Virus record (IMG/VR): IMGVR_UViG_3300033571_009115
Coordinates: 1 to 24,306 of that record
DNA: 24,306 nt
Source of the DNA: a virus
Direction: 5' to 3' (one strand)
The position numbers were made by a program, and so were the translations under genes. The notes under the pieces are model-generated. The model had not been told where the DNA came from. It saw only the letters and a list, made by a program, of their open reading frames with translations, and searched no databases. This document shows positions 1,800 through 23,564 of the stretch, in pieces. How positions within the stretch are numbered: the stretch's first letter is position 1; each line of letters begins with the position of its first letter.

Positions 1800-2011
1800 T
1801 GGCATACACTAGATATACAACCGTTCAGGGAGATCGTTGGGATACCGTAGCCTTCAAGGCTTATGGTGACGCCACGCTATACAGCGAAATTGTTGAAGCT
1901 AATCCGACCGTTCCAAAGGATGCTGTCATTCCTTCAGGGATAGTTCTGAACATTCCTATCCGTGAAAATAGTGTTTCCAAGAAATCCGTTTTGCCACCAT
2001 GGAAACAGTAA
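1799..2011 (+). CDS. P2 gpX-like tail protein (LysM-type fold)
   Basis: This 70-residue protein has the LysM-like layout of tail protein X: YTTVQGDRWDTVAFKAYGD, then a LYSEIVEANP helix and a VIPSGIVLNIPI strand. In P2-like and Mu-like phages gpX lies between gpU and gpD and belongs to the tail/baseplate hub. The length matches the family (about 67-75 aa). The C-terminus is basic and Ser-rich. It overlaps gpU by 1 nt at the start, and its last 13 nt overlap the start of the hub gene in another frame. Confidence 0.85.
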   Translation: MAYTRYTTVQGDRWDTVAFKAYGDATLYSEIVEANPTVPKDAVIPSGIVLNIPIRENSVSKKSVLPPWKQ

Positions 2012-3360
2012 TACAGCCACGTGTACGCATCACGTACCAGGGCAAGGACATCACGAGCGATATATCTGCTTACTTACTTTCAGTTGAGTACTCAGACAGC
2101 ACGGAGGACGAATCGGACGAAGCTAGTTTCACGGTTGAGAACACCGAGCAAGTGTGGAACACAAACTGGCGGCCGAAGAAGAAGGACAAGCTCCAGATAT
2201 CCATTGGCTACGATTCGGAAATGCTCGATTGTGGAACATTCACGGTCGATGAGATTGAGTTCTCTGGACCACCAGACACCGTTTCTATCCGAGCATTGGC
2301 GGCTTCGGTAGCCAACCCAATCCGAACTAAGGACAGCAAGGCCTACGAAAAACAGACCTTGCAACAGATAGCTGAGGAGATTGCTAAGAAGCACGGATAT
2401 CAGATAGTCAACAACATGTCTGACAAGGACAAGTTGAAGGATATCAAGTTTGAGCGAATCACTCAGTCGCGCCAAACAGACCTGGCATTCTTGAGCCGAA
2501 TCTCAGACGACTACGGCATCATGTTTTCCGTCCGTGACACCAAGCTCATATTCACTTCGGTATATGATATCGAAGGTGCCGGAACAGCTTTGAAGCTCGA
2601 CCGAAAAGACCTTATGAATTACTCGGTCAAAGACCAAGCCGTTGACACGTACAAGAGCGCATCGGTGAAACACGTCGTTCCGAAAAAGAGCGAGACGGTG
2701 AAATTCATCTATGAAGGGGAAGGAAATAAGAATGCTGCCGATACATTGGAGGTTCGTTCAAAGGCTGAGGACACGAAGCAAGCGGAAACGAAAGCCAAAG
2801 CGAAGCTCCACAAGGCGAACAAGAAGGAAGTGACTGGCTCATTCTCGATAGAGGGAAATCCTCGCATCGTTGCTGGAATCAACTTTGATCTAACTGGATT
2901 TGGTTTGCTCTCTGGCAAGTGGAACGTGACTAAGACCACGCACAGAATAGATAAGTCGGGAGGTTACACAACTGACTTTGACGCCAACTTCATTTCATCC
3001 GCTCCACAGACTGGCCAATACGCTTCAATAGGGAATGTTCTGTTTGACACAGACAAATCCGTTATCCGTTCTGAGGGTGCTACCGAAATTGATAGAGTGG
3101 TGAAGTTTCTTCAGGATAATGTCAATGTGACTATGGAAATAGCAGGGCATACAGATAGCAATGCAGACGCTAACTATAACCTTGCGTTGTCCGAGCGACG
3201 TGCGAATGCTGTTCGAGACTATATGATTAGCAAGGGAATCTTCGCTACTCGCTTGACGGCGAAGGGATACGGGGAGTCACAGCCAGTCGCAACGAATGAA
3301 ACAGGAGACGGTCGTCAGAAAAATAGACGAACCGATTTTGTTATCGTCAAGAATAATTGA
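1999..3360 (+). CDS. gpD-like baseplate hub (late control D family) fused to an OmpA-like domain
   Basis: Residues 1 to about 335 match the late control gene D / gp27-like hub family: an N-terminal ITYQGKDITSDISAYLLSVEYSD strand set, a middle LQQIAEEIAKKHGY segment, a DLAFLSRISDDYGI motif and a SGKWNVTKTTHRID closing strand. GpD forms the ring at the tube end that holds the spike. Residues ~341-453 (bases ~3019-3360) are an OmpA C-terminal-like peptidoglycan-binding domain: VLFDTDKSVI, the GHTDSNADANYNLALSERRA core, a KGYGESQPVATN segment and the ending NRRTDFVIV. The core keeps the expected Asp and Arg residues (GHTDS, SERRA, NRR) for binding meso-diaminopimelate-type peptide stems. P2 gpD is 387 aa without such a domain. 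The start overlaps gpX by 13 nt. Confidence 0.88.
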   Translation: METVIQPRVRITYQGKDITSDISAYLLSVEYSDSTEDESDEASFTVENTEQVWNTNWRPKKKDKLQISIGYDSEMLDCGTFTVDEIEFSGPPDTVSIRALAASVANPIRTKDSKAYEKQTLQQIAEEIAKKHGYQIVNNMSDKDKLKDIKFERITQSRQTDLAFLSRISDDYGIMFSVRDTKLIFTSVYDIEGAGTALKLDRKDLMNYSVKDQAVDTYKSASVKHVVPKKSETVKFIYEGEGNKNAADTLEVRSKAEDTKQAETKAKAKLHKANKKEVTGSFSIEGNPRIVAGINFDLTGFGLLSGKWNVTKTTHRIDKSGGYTTDFDANFISSAPQTGQYASIGNVLFDTDKSVIRSEGATEIDRVVKFLQDNVNVTMEIAGHTDSNADANYNLALSERRANAVRDYMISKGIFATRLTAKGYGESQPVATNETGDGRQKNRRTDFVIVKNN

Positions 3361-11012: not shown

Positions 11013-11801
11013 TTACACCTTGACCCATGAGGGAAGGTTGAGTGGTTTTAGGTTCGTGTCATAACCTGGCCATTGATTCATTTGGCGACACGCCATGTAT
11101 TTGTAAAGATTCTCAGAGTACACTTGTCTGCCGTATTCGATAAGTCCATCAGGCATATAGAAGATGTTTACAAGGTAGGGAGGTTTTTTTTCTACCGCAA
11201 TAAAGATGAACCCATCAGGATTGAGATTGTTTGCTTTTGCGCCGTCAAGATAGAATGCGCCTTGAACGTGGTAGCGATATTTAAAAGACGATTTAGCGAA
11301 GCCTTCATCTGAGGCATCGTCCGTCGATTTCAAATCAACAATTACTCGAACGTCAGGATTCCACCAATCCATCCGACACTTACAAGGTGCGTCTGTGAGT
11401 ACATCTTCCCACTTCAATGTTGTTTCGGTTTTTCCTACCTTCAACAGTTCGAATGCAGCAGGATGTTTCATCACAGAGTCACGCATACGACGAACCATGT
11501 CATATTGTTCCATTGTGATTATTTCCTTGTCAGCGTGCTCTTCTTCGAACGCTTCACGCTTCGCAACGGAACCCGTACCTGAGAATTTTGGACGGATGAC
11601 AAAGTGATACGGAAAGATGTCGTTTTCCAGCGTTAGTACGTGGAATGCATTTCCTACAACTAAAGCTTCTGTTTTCGATTCGGGTTCCCGATTCGGATTT
11701 AAGTACCGCTCCCAATAGTGAGCTGGTGACTTTGCAATGAGGTCAAGTCCCGACTTTGAGATTCTTGAAACATCATTGTGATACATCTGGTTTACTTTCA
11801 T
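11013..11801 (-). CDS. RecE-like PD-(D/E)XK exonuclease (DUF3799-type)
   Basis: The 262-aa protein looks like the exodeoxyribonuclease VIII / DUF3799 branch of the PD-(D/E)XK nucleases, which make 3' single strands for an annealing partner. An N-terminal ISKSGLDLIAKSPAHYWERY segment is followed by EALVVGNAFHVLTLE (Gly-x-x-x-His). Catalytic motifs are CRMDWW (D145), VIVDLKST (D156, K158) and the Gln motif YRYHVQGAFY (Q180). The gene is first in the minus-strand operon behind a TAnnTTTG promoter; 27 nt separate it from the probable annealing protein. Full family length is present. Confidence 0.88.
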   Translation of the reverse strand: MKVNQMYHNDVSRISKSGLDLIAKSPAHYWERYLNPNREPESKTEALVVGNAFHVLTLENDIFPYHFVIRPKFSGTGSVAKREAFEEEHADKEIITMEQYDMVRRMRDSVMKHPAAFELLKVGKTETTLKWEDVLTDAPCKCRMDWWNPDVRVIVDLKSTDDASDEGFAKSSFKYRYHVQGAFYLDGAKANNLNPDGFIFIAVEKKPPYLVNIFYMPDGLIEYGRQVYSENLYKYMACRQMNQWPGYDTNLKPLNLPSWVKV

Positions 11802-11829
11802 TTCGTCTATGTGTGTGAAAAAATATATG

Positions 11830-11856
11830 CAAAAATAACCAACATATTCATAAAAG
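11830..11856 (-). promoter_or_regulatory. Bacteroidota-type promoter for the recombination operon
   Basis: On the minus strand the sequence reads TATTTTTG (plus-strand 11837-11830), fitting the -7 consensus TAnnTTTG. A TTG lies about 19 nt upstream, in the -33 position. It drives the RecE-like gene, whose start is at 11801. Confidence 0.6.
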
Positions 11857-11859
11857 CAA

Positions 11860-11867
11860 TATATTTG
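11860..11867 (+). promoter_or_regulatory. -7 box of the early rightward promoter
   Basis: TATATTTG fits the Bacteroidota -7 consensus and lies 21 nt upstream of the start of the HTH gene at 11889. No good -33 TTTG was seen, so a bound activator or a weak promoter is possible. It is divergent from, and about 30 nt away from, the -7 box of the leftward promoter, so the two are probably co-regulated. Confidence 0.6.
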
Positions 11868-11888
11868 CAGAAAAAATCATCCAAAATC

Positions 11889-12161
11889 ATGGGAGAAGCA
11901 GAAAATACACAGGACAATCATCAGGCGTCACCGAACGTCACGGGGAACACATATAGTTCACTGAAAACACAATGCGACGAGTTAGGAATCAGTGTAGCAA
12001 AGTTGTGCCGAGAGGCGAACGTTGACAGATCATTGTTAGTAAGGTGGCGTAATAAAGAGCCTAACACGCTCAAGATATATAATGCGCTACTACAAGCGTT
12101 GTCGCGTATCCAATCACGTAACCATTTACCTATCAAAAAAGAGAGCCATGAAAATTCTTGA
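11889..12161 (+). CDS. small helix-turn-helix protein
   Basis: The start is ATG 11889, just after the promoter; the longer open frame would begin upstream of it. In the 90 residues, LKTQCDELGISVAKLCREANVDRSLLVRWRN is an XRE/Cro-like helix-turn-helix, flanked by a polar N-terminus and a basic C-terminus. As the first gene of the rightward early unit and divergent from the recombination operon, it is a candidate regulator of both promoters. No CI-like repressor with a dimerisation or protease domain is seen in the window. The last 14 nt overlap the next gene. Confidence 0.65.
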   Translation: MGEAENTQDNHQASPNVTGNTYSSLKTQCDELGISVAKLCREANVDRSLLVRWRNKEPNTLKIYNALLQALSRIQSRNHLPIKKESHENS

Positions 12162-12531
12162 CATTCAGAAATTGAAGTCGAAGCGCGCTACGGGTGTTCC
12201 GATGCTGCGCGTATCGAAAAACAAGGTGTCGTTCGGAACATCACTTGTTGAACATTTGAACCTTGAAGGAGATTCCAACATCTTACTTCAGTTTGCTACC
12301 GATGAAGACACGCTACATATTAGAGTAGCGAATGAAAGCGACGAAAATAGCGCCGAATTTATCAAGCGCTCCAATCAGCAGTGGGAACTCTATAACTCTG
12401 GAGTTGCTAATTACATTCGCAAGCTGTCGGGTAGCGAAGAAAACAGCATTCCTTGCCGTGTAACCAACGTAAACGATGAGGGATGGTATCCAGTTATTAC
12501 TACCTACTGGAAGACAATTAGTAATCAATAA
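12148..12531 (+). CDS. unknown early protein
   Basis: The start is ATG 12148 (MKILDIQKLKSKRATGVPML); an upstream in-frame start at 12082 would lie inside the HTH gene. The 127-aa protein is mixed alpha/beta and acidic in the middle, with two Cys at most and no motif I recognise. It overlaps the HTH gene by 14 nt and is followed 12 nt later by ssb. The position suggests an early accessory or DNA-metabolism role, without direct support. Confidence 0.6.
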   Translation: MKILDIQKLKSKRATGVPMLRVSKNKVSFGTSLVEHLNLEGDSNILLQFATDEDTLHIRVANESDENSAEFIKRSNQQWELYNSGVANYIRKLSGSEENSIPCRVTNVNDEGWYPVITTYWKTISNQ

Positions 12532-12543
12532 ATACACATACAA

Positions 12544-13074
12544 ATGAAGAAAACCGTAATTATCGGTAACATTGGGCAAGACGCCCAATTGCGTACAACT
12601 CAGAACGGGAAACAACTGGCATCGTTTACCGTGGCAGTCTCTGAGAAAATTGGCCAGCAAGAACAAACGACGTGGTTCAACTGCGCTGGATGGGGTGAGC
12701 GATTCACAGGAACACTTCTTCAGTATCTTCGCAAAGGTACTAAGGTGTATATCGAGGGGAACTACTCTCCTAGAATGTACCAGCGTACGGACGGATCAAT
12801 GGACATCAGCCATGATATTATGGTGAACCACATTGAACTGCTTGGAGGACAACAACAGCAAGCTGCACAACCTCAGCAACCTGTTCAACAGCCAATCCAA
12901 CAGCCTGTTCAGCAACCGATTCAGCAACCTGTTCAGCAACAGCAACCACAGCAACAGCCTGTACATAGAGCGGCATACCTACCGCCTCAAAATCAGCCTC
13001 AGACTGCGAATGTGTTCACTACTCCAGGTTCTGGACACAAAGACGACATGTTCGCTAACGACCCACCGTTCTAA
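12544..13074 (+). CDS. ssb: single-stranded DNA-binding protein
   Basis: The 176-aa protein coats single-stranded DNA in replication and recombination. An OB-fold fills residues 1-105: KTVIIGNIGQDAQLRTTQNGK, then LASFTVAVSE, TTWFNCAGWGERFTGTLLQYLRKGTKVYIEG and DGSMDISHDIMVNHIELLG. A Gln/Pro-rich linker (residues ~107-145) is built of QQPVQQPIQ repeats. The C-terminus ends in DPPF, close to the bacterial acidic tip DDDIPF that binds replication partners. It lies between an unknown gene and a DUF4406 gene, upstream of the helicase. Confidence 0.95.
   Translation: MKKTVIIGNIGQDAQLRTTQNGKQLASFTVAVSEKIGQQEQTTWFNCAGWGERFTGTLLQYLRKGTKVYIEGNYSPRMYQRTDGSMDISHDIMVNHIELLGGQQQQAAQPQQPVQQPIQQPVQQPIQQPVQQQQPQQQPVHRAAYLPPQNQPQTANVFTTPGSGHKDDMFANDPPF
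12870..12960 (+). repeat. Gln/Pro codon tandem repeat in ssb linker
   Basis: Short imperfect direct repeats of the type CAACCTGTTCAGCAACC(A/G)AT encode QQPVQQPI. This is a low-complexity linker likely to vary in length by slippage. Confidence 0.7.
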
Positions 13075-13077
13075 GCT

Positions 13078-13374
13078 ATGATCTACATTTCAGGTTCAAT
13101 ATCATCGGATATCATCGAAGCACCTCGCAAATTTCAAGAAGCAGAGGTGCGGATATGCCGAATGTATGGGAAGCCTGTAATCAACCCAATGAAGCTCCCT
13201 CACAAGGAGGGAGCATCTTGGGAGGATTATATGGTAGTCGATTTGGAAGCACTCGATAAGTGCGACACTATCTATATGCTCCCGTGTTGGCAAAGGTCAC
13301 ACGGAGCACGATTAGAACACGCATACGCTAAGTACTATAACAAGCGTATCATCTACGAAGACAAGAACATTTAA
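13078..13374 (+). CDS. DUF4406 protein (nucleoside deoxyribosyltransferase-like)
   Basis: The 98-aa protein matches the DUF4406 pattern: a MIYISGSIS start, NPMKLPH in the middle, DLEALDKCDTIYMLPCW and then the S-x-G-A-x-x-E motif in RSHGARLEHAYAKYYNK with a closing RIIYE strand. The family is structurally related to nucleoside 2-deoxyribosyltransferases, with Glu as the candidate catalytic residue. A role in nucleotide metabolism or DNA modification is likely, but the substrate is unknown. It starts 3 nt after the ssb stop. Confidence 0.8.
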   Translation: MIYISGSISSDIIEAPRKFQEAEVRICRMYGKPVINPMKLPHKEGASWEDYMVVDLEALDKCDTIYMLPCWQRSHGARLEHAYAKYYNKRIIYEDKNI

Positions 13375-21242: not shown

Positions 21243-22418
21243 ATGCTAAAAAAACAGGAAAATCAAAAAGTGGAAGACGCAGTAATTATCGCATCGCCTG
21301 AGCAAGAGACACAGGCGCTAATCATTGCAGAAACAGACAAGCTAATCGAGACAACGCTTGTGGAACTCAAGAAATCGACCGTAACGGACGAAGCTCTGGC
21401 GCACCTCCGAAATGAGTGCACAGCTCTATCCATTTCGGACATCAACGACCTCAAAGGCTACAACGCTGTGAAAGCAGCTGCTACCAAGGTCAAAAAGATT
21501 CGTACTTCATTGGAAGCGAAACGCAAGGAACTGAAAGAGCCAGCTATCCGCTTCGGTGAAGCTCTGGATGCCGAAGCCAAGCGAATCAAAGAACAGCTGG
21601 TACCGCTTGAAGAGGAACTGAACAAAAAGAAACAGGACTACGAAGATGCGGTTGAAGCTGCCAAGCGGGAAGAGTATCAGCGACGTGTCAACCTATTGAC
21701 GGCTAACGCATATCAATTGGTCAATGGCTTCTTCGTGTGTGGTCCAATTCAAGTGCACAGCGATGAGTTGGCGAAAATTACAGACGTACAGATGGACGTG
21801 TACGTACAGCACGGACAGGAGGAATTGAAGCGCAGAGAGGCTGAGGAACAGCGACGACAAGAGGAAGCGGAACGCCAACGCCAGGAGAATGAAAGGCTAC
21901 GATTGGAGAGAGAAGCGCTAGACAAGGAGAAAGCCGAGTTCGAAGCATGGAAAGCGCAACAGCAAGCAGAGCTAAAGGCTCAGACGGCGGCTATCGAAAC
22001 CACTTATGACACGGTTGTCCAACCGACACAGCCTGAGCCGTCAATCGAGTTCGGTGCGCCTATCCACGGCATGCAAGGCGTCAATGGACACCCTGACCCA
22101 GTCGGAGAACCTGGAGCTCCTGGATGGGATGGACTGCCACCTATTCAGAACATGGAAGCGGTCGCACATGCGTTTGTAGCTCCAGAACAGCAACCGCCGT
22201 ACTACGCGCCACAAACTCAACCGATAGCACCAGCGTCACAACATCAGCCACAGCCACAAGCTCCACAACCTGGCAACGCTTTATGGGTTCCTCAGAATGA
22301 GTTCCAACGTGGATTCAATGCTTTCCGAGTGAAGCTTGACCAGTTGTTGAAGTCTGATACTAAGCTGAGCAAGCAACTACTGCATGATTGGGCATGGGGT
22401 CTTCCATTCCCTGAGTAG
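21243..22418 (+). CDS. DUF1351-like coiled-coil phage protein
   Basis: The 391-aa protein has an N-terminal part with DINDLKGYNAVKAAATKVKKIRTSLEAKRKELKEP, which resembles DUF1351. That family is often found near phage recombination genes. A long charged coiled coil (residues ~100-245, rich in RQEEAERQRQENERLRLERE) follows, then a Gln/Pro-rich segment with a short collagen-like GEPGAPGW run (residues ~283-290) and a globular-looking C-terminus (FQRGFNAFRVKLDQLLKSD, ending AWGLPFPE). The role is not known; a scaffold or recombination accessory is likely. A terminator follows 24 nt after the stop. Confidence 0.65.
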   Translation: MLKKQENQKVEDAVIIASPEQETQALIIAETDKLIETTLVELKKSTVTDEALAHLRNECTALSISDINDLKGYNAVKAAATKVKKIRTSLEAKRKELKEPAIRFGEALDAEAKRIKEQLVPLEEELNKKKQDYEDAVEAAKREEYQRRVNLLTANAYQLVNGFFVCGPIQVHSDELAKITDVQMDVYVQHGQEELKRREAEEQRRQEEAERQRQENERLRLEREALDKEKAEFEAWKAQQQAELKAQTAAIETTYDTVVQPTQPEPSIEFGAPIHGMQGVNGHPDPVGEPGAPGWDGLPPIQNMEAVAHAFVAPEQQPPYYAPQTQPIAPASQHQPQPQAPQPGNALWVPQNEFQRGFNAFRVKLDQLLKSDTKLSKQLLHDWAWGLPFPE

Positions 22419-22442
22419 TACAGCAGCACTGTTTATCACTCG

Positions 22443-22468
22443 AATCCCGGTATTTTACCGGGATTTTG
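22443..22468 (+). terminator. intrinsic terminator
   Basis: A 10-bp stem, AATCCCGGTA (22443-22452)/TACCGGGATT (22456-22465), has a TTT loop and a short T-rich tail. Its last bases include the TTTG at 22465-22468, which is also the candidate -33 element of the next promoter. Confidence 0.8.
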
Positions 22469-22497
22469 TGTTTACAATGATTTTTCCATTATATTTG
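22465..22497 (+). promoter_or_regulatory. promoter for the membrane/lipoprotein pair
   Basis: A -33 TTTG (22465-22468) and -7 TATATTTG (22490-22497) are spaced by 21 nt. Start ATG 22526 lies 28 nt downstream. Confidence 0.75.
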
Positions 22498-22525: not shown

Positions 22526-22921
22526 ATGATTGAACAAATTATCAACTCCGAATGGTTCAAGGCACCAGTATTGATTGCGGGCGGCTTCATTGTTCGAATG
22601 ATTTTCGACCGTCGAAAACTCAAGGCTGAAAACGAAACAGAAGAGTCCAGAGCTAAGTCAGCTCAACTGGATGCCGATACCAAGGCTGTTGAACTCTATG
22701 AACGCTACGCTACACGTATGCAAGGCGAATTTGACCGACTGAATCAGACGGTTGATGGCTTACGTTCTGAGGTGGAAAACCTCAAGCAAGAAAATAAGCA
22801 GCTGAGCCAAGAGAACGAACAACTGCGCAAAGAGAACGGCATACTTCATCAGGAAATCAGTACATTCAACAAACAGATTGAGAGTCTAAAAAAGCAAATT
22901 ACCAAAAAACCAAAACAATGA
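22526..22921 (+). CDS. membrane-anchored coiled-coil protein (possible inner-membrane spanin or lysis accessory)
   Basis: I take ATG 22526; a TTG at 22511 would add five residues. The 131-aa protein has a hydrophobic N-terminal segment (FKAPVLIAGGFIVRMIF, residues ~11-27) followed by a basic stop-transfer, RRKLK, and a long coiled coil (residues ~35-125) with repeated Gln/Glu/Asn-Leu heptads. This N-in, coiled-coil layout is that of an inner-membrane spanin such as Rz or of a tail/holin accessory. The next gene is a lipoprotein that overlaps it by 4 nt (ATGA), like an Rz/Rz1-type pair. Confidence 0.55.
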   Translation: MIEQIINSEWFKAPVLIAGGFIVRMIFDRRKLKAENETEESRAKSAQLDADTKAVELYERYATRMQGEFDRLNQTVDGLRSEVENLKQENKQLSQENEQLRKENGILHQEISTFNKQIESLKKQITKKPKQ

Positions 22922-23508
22922 AAAATCTAATTCTATTCGCACTAGCCATCGTCTCATTGACGGCATGCGGCCATTCTAAGAAGGTAACATCTGAGACGGA
23001 TATCAAAACAGAGCTAACCGCCAGTTCCGTACTCAAGGCGGAAACGAACGTTACCAAGGATTCCAATTTGGATAAAGCCGTGACCACCATCGTCACGGAA
23101 AAAATCGACACGAACGTCCTTGTACCTGGCACAACCGCTTCCGTGTCACGCCCGTTGGCTGATCTCATAGACAATAAGGTCATTGAGGCTTCCAACGGGA
23201 ACACTACTGTATTAGTGACGTATGATCCAACCACAGGAACTGTTCGAGCTGAAGGTAAAACGGCTGAACATTCAGTGCCTGTCCAGGCAACGAAAACGAC
23301 GCTTGTCCGAGAGGACTTAAAATCCTCAGAGCATGAGAAGAGTTCAGAAACAGTCAGTGATAATCATAACACAAAATCAAAGGCACGTACATCTGAAGAA
23401 ACGACGTTCAAGGAGTCATCCAGCAATAGCATTGGAGTATGGATATCCATTATTCTCTTTATTCTATTGCTCATTGGAGTGATAATTACGATAAATCGCA
23501 TGATGTAG
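22918..23508 (+). CDS. lipoprotein with C-terminal transmembrane segment (unimolecular-spanin-like)
   Basis: The 196-aa protein starts with a lipoprotein signal peptide (MKNLILFALAIVSLTACG, lipobox L14-T-A-C17) and ends with a strong membrane segment (IGVWISIILFILLLIGVIIT, residues ~172-191) followed by a basic NRMM. The middle is Thr/Ser/Lys/Glu-rich and probably extended. An N-terminal lipid anchor for the outer membrane plus a C-terminal inner-membrane anchor is the topology of unimolecular spanins (phage T1 gp11), which fuse the two membranes at lysis. T1 gp11 is about 131 aa. The gene overlaps the upstream coiled-coil gene by 4 nt. The function is inferred from topology only. Confidence 0.6.
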   Translation: MKNLILFALAIVSLTACGHSKKVTSETDIKTELTASSVLKAETNVTKDSNLDKAVTTIVTEKIDTNVLVPGTTASVSRPLADLIDNKVIEASNGNTTVLVTYDPTTGTVRAEGKTAEHSVPVQATKTTLVREDLKSSEHEKSSETVSDNHNTKSKARTSEETTFKESSSNSIGVWISIILFILLLIGVIITINRMM

Positions 23509-23529
23509 AAATCGTCTGAAATCCTTATA

Positions 23530-23564
23530 AATAGGTGGGGCTAGCGGCTCACCTATTTTTTTTG
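23530..23564 (+). terminator. intrinsic terminator after the lipoprotein gene
   Basis: An 8-bp stem, AATAGGTG (23530-23537)/CACCTATT (23550-23557), has a GC-rich loop and is followed by a T run through 23563. Confidence 0.8.

Follow-up and report, generated by a model that had tools for sequence, protein, structure and literature searches.

The window analysed herein is the 24,306-base fragment IMGVR_UViG_3300033571_009115 from IMG/VR. Its genes include a tail module of P2 type (GpU, GPD hub, spike, baseplate J, and collar), an integrase gene, and a region for replication that encodes a zinc-ribbon (DnaG-type) primase/helicase and RadC; the source is a P2-like tailed phage, probably one infecting a Bacteroidota host. 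The motif TTTG-N17-23-TAnnTTTG, which is the promoter type of Bacteroidota, occurred five times in the window against 0.58 expected, with none of 100 shuffles reaching five, and thus a Bacteroidota host appeared likely. The motif was also enriched in the related locus L002 (five against 0.72 expected; 0 of 200 shuffles reached five); in the related locus L003 the enrichment was weaker (three against 0.58 expected; 6 of 200 shuffles reached three). Relatives of the window primase were also carried by two MAG contigs of doubtful host (L038 and L039), labelled Phycisphaerales and Geobacter; these two were the only same-primase prophage contigs of this kind found, and their labels were set aside as host evidence because the binning of phage contigs in MAGs is unreliable. 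A separate observation concerned the tail module, in which the GPD-type baseplate hub gene (1999–3360) has a fused C-terminal OmpA-family peptidoglycan-binding domain (PF00691, 1.9e-23); the relative G002 has an OmpA-like C-terminal stretch at the matching position.

Downstream of a phage gene at 21243–22418, for which the PHROG matches were of unknown function, stands a pair of genes that the initial annotation had proposed as overlapping lysis genes at 22526–23508. Both the coordinates and the overlap were right, with the two ORFs (22526–22921 and 22918–23508) sharing an ATGA. The locus comprises the following features.

22442–22466, plus strand: intrinsic terminator 5' of the pair with an 11-pair stem, closing the preceding gene (terminator scan)
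22465–22497, plus strand: Bacteroidota-type promoter, TTTG - 21 nt - TATATTTG, approximately 28 nt 5' of the ATG (motif scan)
22526–22921, plus strand: ORF for a membrane protein of 131 aa with an N-terminal TM and a coiled coil, putative N-out/C-in lysis accessory (releasin-/LysF1b-like)
22553–22606, plus strand: membrane segment of this protein, residues 10–27 (WFKAPVLIAGGFIVRMIF), followed by DRRK; its best conserved part
22918–23508, plus strand: ORF for a lipoprotein of 196 aa with a C-terminal membrane anchor, predicted u-spanin with a homologue in a lysis cassette
22957–22968, plus strand: lipobox LTAC, residues 14–17, with the sole cysteine of the lipoprotein
23074–23319, plus strand: beta-rich periplasmic core, residues 53–134 (AlphaFold2), the conserved part of the lipoprotein
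23428–23502, plus strand: C-terminal transmembrane helix, residues 171–195 (hydrophobicity and AlphaFold2 model)
23529–23558, plus strand: intrinsic terminator 3' of the pair (terminator scan)

The start of the coiled-coil ORF was set at the ATG at 22526, and a TTG extension by five residues to 22511 was unsupported by the relatives. In IMG/VR, two relatives of approximately 45 kb, G001 and G002, kept the order and adjacency of the pair within a gene order like that of the window (RadC, the phage gene of unknown function, coiled-coil gene, and lipoprotein gene, with small genes interspersed in places). Their coiled-coil proteins were 59 and 48% identical to that of the window and their lipoproteins 35 and 43%, and one relative retained the ATGA overlap, whereas a gap of 2 nt separates the two genes in the second. 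Since both proteins, their order, and their adjacency are conserved in two other phages, the pair is not a product of chance. The flanking elements recurred as well: L003 had the upstream and downstream terminators and the TATATTTG box at equivalent places, and L002 had the downstream terminator and the TATATTTG promoter, both found by scan, together with an upstream hairpin with a T run (AATCCCGG..CCGGGATTTTTT) that was recognized by eye only and was not reported by the scan. Terminator, promoter, gene pair, and terminator form one unit common to all three phages.

The downstream gene encodes the sole lipoprotein candidate of the window in all six frames of both strands. As the initial annotation had correctly read, the protein combines a signal peptide with the lipobox LTAC (residues 14–17) with a strongly hydrophobic C-terminal segment (residues 172–190; Kyte-Doolittle mean 3.15). 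The AlphaFold2 model suggested strands through residues 53–134 and a helix at residues 171–195, this model being weak overall (pLDDT of 56.5 from four sequences) and reaching approximately 72–82 only for residues 71–120. The lipobox Cys was kept in all four lipoprotein homologues, which have cysteine only in the lipobox or signal peptide and none in the periplasmic part, and the C-terminal membrane anchor was kept in four phages. Sequence identity was 50–60% in the core (residues 51–134) and 18–41% in the signal peptide and C-terminal helix. According to Kongari et al. (2018; PMC6139136), the defining features of unimolecular spanins (u-spanins) are a lipobox and a C-terminal TMD, to which the prototype adds a beta-rich periplasmic domain; periplasmic cysteine was absent in 58 of 58 u-spanins (PMC6139136). 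The lipoprotein thus displays every u-spanin sequence feature that was tested, namely the lipobox, C-terminal TM helix, beta-rich core, and absence of periplasmic cysteine, all of which it has in common with u-spanins of the T1 gp11 type.

Despite this shared architecture, no sequence homology was found to the listed u-spanin families. No Pfam, PHROG, or NCBIfam model covers the lipoprotein family, and a fold search against the PDB found nothing. Relatives were found neither in public phage records nor in bacterial genomes. Homology to the lipoproteins of BS-TP2, 11b, and RAP44 was considered but not supported, with the alignments confined to the signal-peptide region (in 11b, plus a short stretch behind it), and weak hints came from an HMM match to the phi12:1 protein (E of 0.005) and from the phi17:1 lipoprotein at rank 4 in Foldseek (E of 0.024). 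Judged by its sequence, the lipoprotein likely represents a new family of u-spanin.

The connection to lysis was provided by another phage contig, L006, which encodes a protein distantly homologous to the lipoprotein (37% identity over residues 69–148, approximately 80 residues; E of 5e-8 among candidate stretches). Its gene order is a TM/coiled-coil gene, a small two-TM holin-like gene, a Peptidase_M15_3 endolysin gene (7.7e-20), and the lipoprotein gene, which overlaps the Peptidase_M15_3 gene by ATGA and is thus coupled to an endolysin gene as u-spanin genes are. This cassette supported the earlier proposals of lysis genes and of a u-spanin topology for the lipoprotein. An endolysin gene beside a homologue, for which the initial annotation had suggested a search, was present in L006. 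In G001 and G002, an M15_3 gene, directly preceded by a holin-like gene, lies behind the tape measure gene approximately 20–22 kb from the pair. The M15_3 gene of these relatives matched the PHROG 894 endolysin (4e-34); since its product is without a membrane segment, no SAR endolysin is known here. Unlike the genes of the listed u-spanins, the lipoprotein gene of the 45-kb relatives is thus remote from the holin and endolysin genes, is paired with a coiled-coil gene, and has its own promoter. In T4, the spanin genes likewise stand apart from the holin and endolysin genes, its lysis genes being scattered (PMC6139136).

The slot between the tape measure and GpU genes, which holds the holin-like and M15_3 genes in the 45-kb relatives (L012, 17147–17795; L009, 15961–16648), is empty in the window, where the end of the tape measure gene (1–900) is directly followed by GpU (900–1799). 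Profiles of M15 and of the relatives' holin gave no match over the window, in which no recognizable endolysin or holin was found; either the endolysin gene of this phage must be located outside the fragment, or its endolysin belongs to a different type. A complete-looking lysis-like cassette (11557–13178) stands directly 3' of the primase gene in L057, a phage whose primase is homologous to the window primase; the cassette consists of a small coil-plus-TM gene, a CHAP-like endolysin gene, a holin-like gene, and a lipobox and C-terminal-TM gene, with the endolysin and holin assigned by eye. A simple topology filter for a lipobox plus a C-terminal TM, which gave a few false positives elsewhere, singled out one ORF and no more in each of the window and the two 45-kb relatives. 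It also selected the lipoproteins of 11b, phi12:1, RAP44, and BS-TP2/3, each beside an endolysin.

The remark in the initial annotation that spanins of Bacteroidota phages are poorly described held insofar as they are little studied, the literature searched containing predictions only and no experimental test of any Bacteroidota u-spanin. It did not hold for the predictions themselves: u-spanins were predicted in 2018 for Cellulophaga, Flavobacterium, and Riemerella phages (phi12:1, 11b as a singleton, and RAP44; PMC6139136), further predictions for Bacteroidota phages followed in 2021, and a 2025 survey described u-spanins as the only type of spanin that Bacteroidetes phages use (PMC12596118). 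In the isolated Bacteroides phages BS-TP2 and BS-TP3, we additionally observed an unannotated lipobox and C-terminal-TM gene after the holin and endolysin genes (L020, 4315–4830; L027, 5397–5930), likely encoding u-spanins although the products have four cysteines each. In the Bacteroides phage B124-14 and its relatives, which form another case, a conserved N-terminal-TM/coiled-coil protein of approximately 200 aa (PHROG 14010 in B124-14) is encoded right behind the M15 endolysin (L017, 5390–5995; L021, 5387–5992; L019, 5390–5977; L025, 2125–2730). No embedded or overlapping lipoprotein was found at this gene, and the protein is possibly an unusual outer-membrane disruptor; B124-14 was entered as spanin-less in the 2018 listing.

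The upstream gene of the pair encodes a cysteine-free protein with a single weak, glycine-containing membrane segment (maximum Kyte-Doolittle value of 1.28) followed by the coil. Identity among the relatives was 78–100% in the membrane segment versus 39–52% in the coil, whereas i-spanin-like controls from Bacteroides phages at moderate divergence exhibited the opposite pattern, with the membrane segment as the less conserved part (44% versus 72%). The net charge of the first 12 residues was −1 or −2 in all seven relatives and look-alikes and −1 in the N-out/C-in control Mu gp25, whereas the seven i-spanins or i-spanin-like proteins compared ranged from 0 to +2. The K/R count according to the positive-inside rule was rejected as a topology test, the K/R excess after the TM being found not only in this protein but also in lambda Rz, T7 18.5, and P2 LysB; the K/R balance is uninformative here, and the topology therefore rests on the N-terminal charge and the conservation.

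These properties resemble those of two known lysis proteins, Mu gp25, a releasin (DUF2730, PF10805) described as N-out/C-in (PMC9239132), and LysF1b of the mycobacteriophages Girr and NBJ, a putative N-out/C-in holin (PMC13056207). The coiled-coil protein has in common with Mu gp25 a short acidic N-terminus, an AGG-containing TM, an RR at the TM junction, and a charged C-terminal domain, but its coil is longer and heptad-rich, and hhalign indicated no homology (probability of 1%). PF10805 gave no match to the window protein and 15.7 bits for the best relative, under the cut-off of 24.9, and by sequence the protein is not placed in the DUF2730 family. With LysF1b, which was compared by description and differs in its Gram-positive host, it shares a single N-terminal TM, a predicted N-out/C-in topology, a charged C-terminal domain, and the character of a lysis gene. 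Small TM/coiled-coil proteins of like build are encoded immediately before the endolysin gene in 11b, P12024L, and pippi8-1, and in L006 at a distance of two genes 5' of it; the L006 protein was matched by the window-group profile (7.5e-10, a value that coil content may inflate). No homology to 11b gp47, to the P12024L protein, or to Mu gp25 was found. By analogy, we see an even chance that the coiled-coil protein acts as a lysis accessory of N-out/C-in topology, in the manner of the Mu gp25 releasin.

Taken as a pair, the two genes probably constitute an outer-membrane-disruption module, in which a u-spanin and an N-out/C-in accessory are expressed from their own promoter. The initial annotation had regarded the joint presence of both layouts as unusual, but the combination is not unique because 11b and L006 have both protein types around one endolysin. 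In 11b (gp47-gp48-gp49) and IMG/VR 3300010885_015134, the TM/coiled-coil and u-spanin-type lipoprotein genes share one lysis cassette with the endolysin gene between them, whereas in the window group they are directly adjacent and isolated.

Several other explanations were weighed against this module. The coiled-coil protein could itself be the holin, of the single-TM LysF1b type, so that the pair would be a holin/u-spanin unit; the conserved, weak, glycine-containing TM agrees with this, as does LysF1b, which in mycobacteriophages behaves like a holin of putative N-out/C-in type (PMC13056207), but a holin-like gene of its own stands directly 5' of the M15 endolysin gene in both G001/G002 and L006, making it unlikely. 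We consider it quite unlikely that the pair serves outside lysis, as an early surface lipoprotein and a membrane protein for superinfection exclusion or another host-takeover function. Its own promoter within the replication region, away from the late genes, would suit such a role, as would the integrase of the phage and a weak PHROG match of the lipoprotein to the Cor exclusion protein (0.21, in the signal peptide only), but in L006 the homologous gene is coupled to that of an endolysin, the C-terminal anchor is retained in four phages, and the two 45-kb relatives have no other ORF of u-spanin topology.

The initial annotation had likened the coiled-coil gene to Rz, and the pair would then be a two-component spanin, with the coiled-coil protein as an i-spanin (N-in, with a periplasmic coil) joined across the periplasm to the lipoprotein as an o-spanin that gained a C-terminal helix. 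A TM/coiled-coil gene directly 5' of and overlapping a lipoprotein gene is indeed the overlapped-type layout seen in Rz/Rz1 and LysB/LysC, the K/R excess after the TM resembles that of Rz, T7 18.5, and LysB, and weak matches to LysB (TIGR03495, 17.5 bits) and to Rz-like PHROGs were obtained. The LysB match, however, was far from the cut-off of 92.75 bits, and the PHROG matches were at the level of the coil only. Moreover, both mature proteins are without cysteine, whereas 507 of 528 known two-component spanins (96%) have a periplasmic cysteine in the i- or o-spanin (PMC6139136), the lipoprotein has a second membrane anchor, and no out-of-frame Rz1-like o-spanin was found embedded in the coiled-coil gene. 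The acidic N-terminus and the better conservation of the TM than of the coil, opposite to the i-spanin-like controls, also disagreed with an i-spanin, and the two protein types are encoded on either side of the endolysin gene in 11b and L006. The Rz-like reading was thus not borne out, and we regard a two-component spanin as improbable. A hybrid spanin, in which the lipoprotein is a self-sufficient bridge in complex with a dedicated inner-membrane partner having a periplasmic coil, appeared most improbable. The pair is co-conserved and translationally coupled or closely spaced in three phages, which would suit such a complex, but the N-terminal charge favors a cytoplasmic coil, and in RAP44, phi12:1, and BS-TP2/3 the protein of u-spanin topology encoded next to the endolysin has no coiled-coil partner adjacent to it.

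For the favored module of u-spanin and accessory, we infer lipidation, topology, and lytic action as follows. The lipoprotein would be lipidated at Cys17 and thereby hold its N-terminus in the outer membrane, while the C-terminal helix would anchor it in the inner membrane and the beta-rich core would bridge the periplasm; upon clearance of the peptidoglycan by the endolysin, its collapse would bring about membrane fusion, as in the model for T1 gp11. The coiled-coil protein would be tethered to the membrane with its N-terminus outside and its coil in the cytoplasm, and may act on the holin or endolysin, and the two genes are presumably co-expressed from a promoter of their own, at a distance from the holin/endolysin pair.

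New here are the sequence family, which no Pfam, PHROG, or NCBIfam model represents, and the isolated unit of two genes in which it is found. The locus also advises caution, as the layout of a coiled-coil membrane gene beside a lipoprotein gene is by itself insufficient for an Rz-like label. It is conceivable, albeit unlikely, that the two proteins form one machine, in which the coiled-coil protein, as a dedicated partner in the inner membrane, would support or time the action of the u-spanin; if so, this would be a third layout for outer-membrane disruption beside the two-component and unimolecular spanins. U-spanins are the predicted outer-membrane opener of Bacteroidota phages; the pair offers a clean, testable two-gene unit, and the putative new family is tied to a lysis cassette through its homologue.
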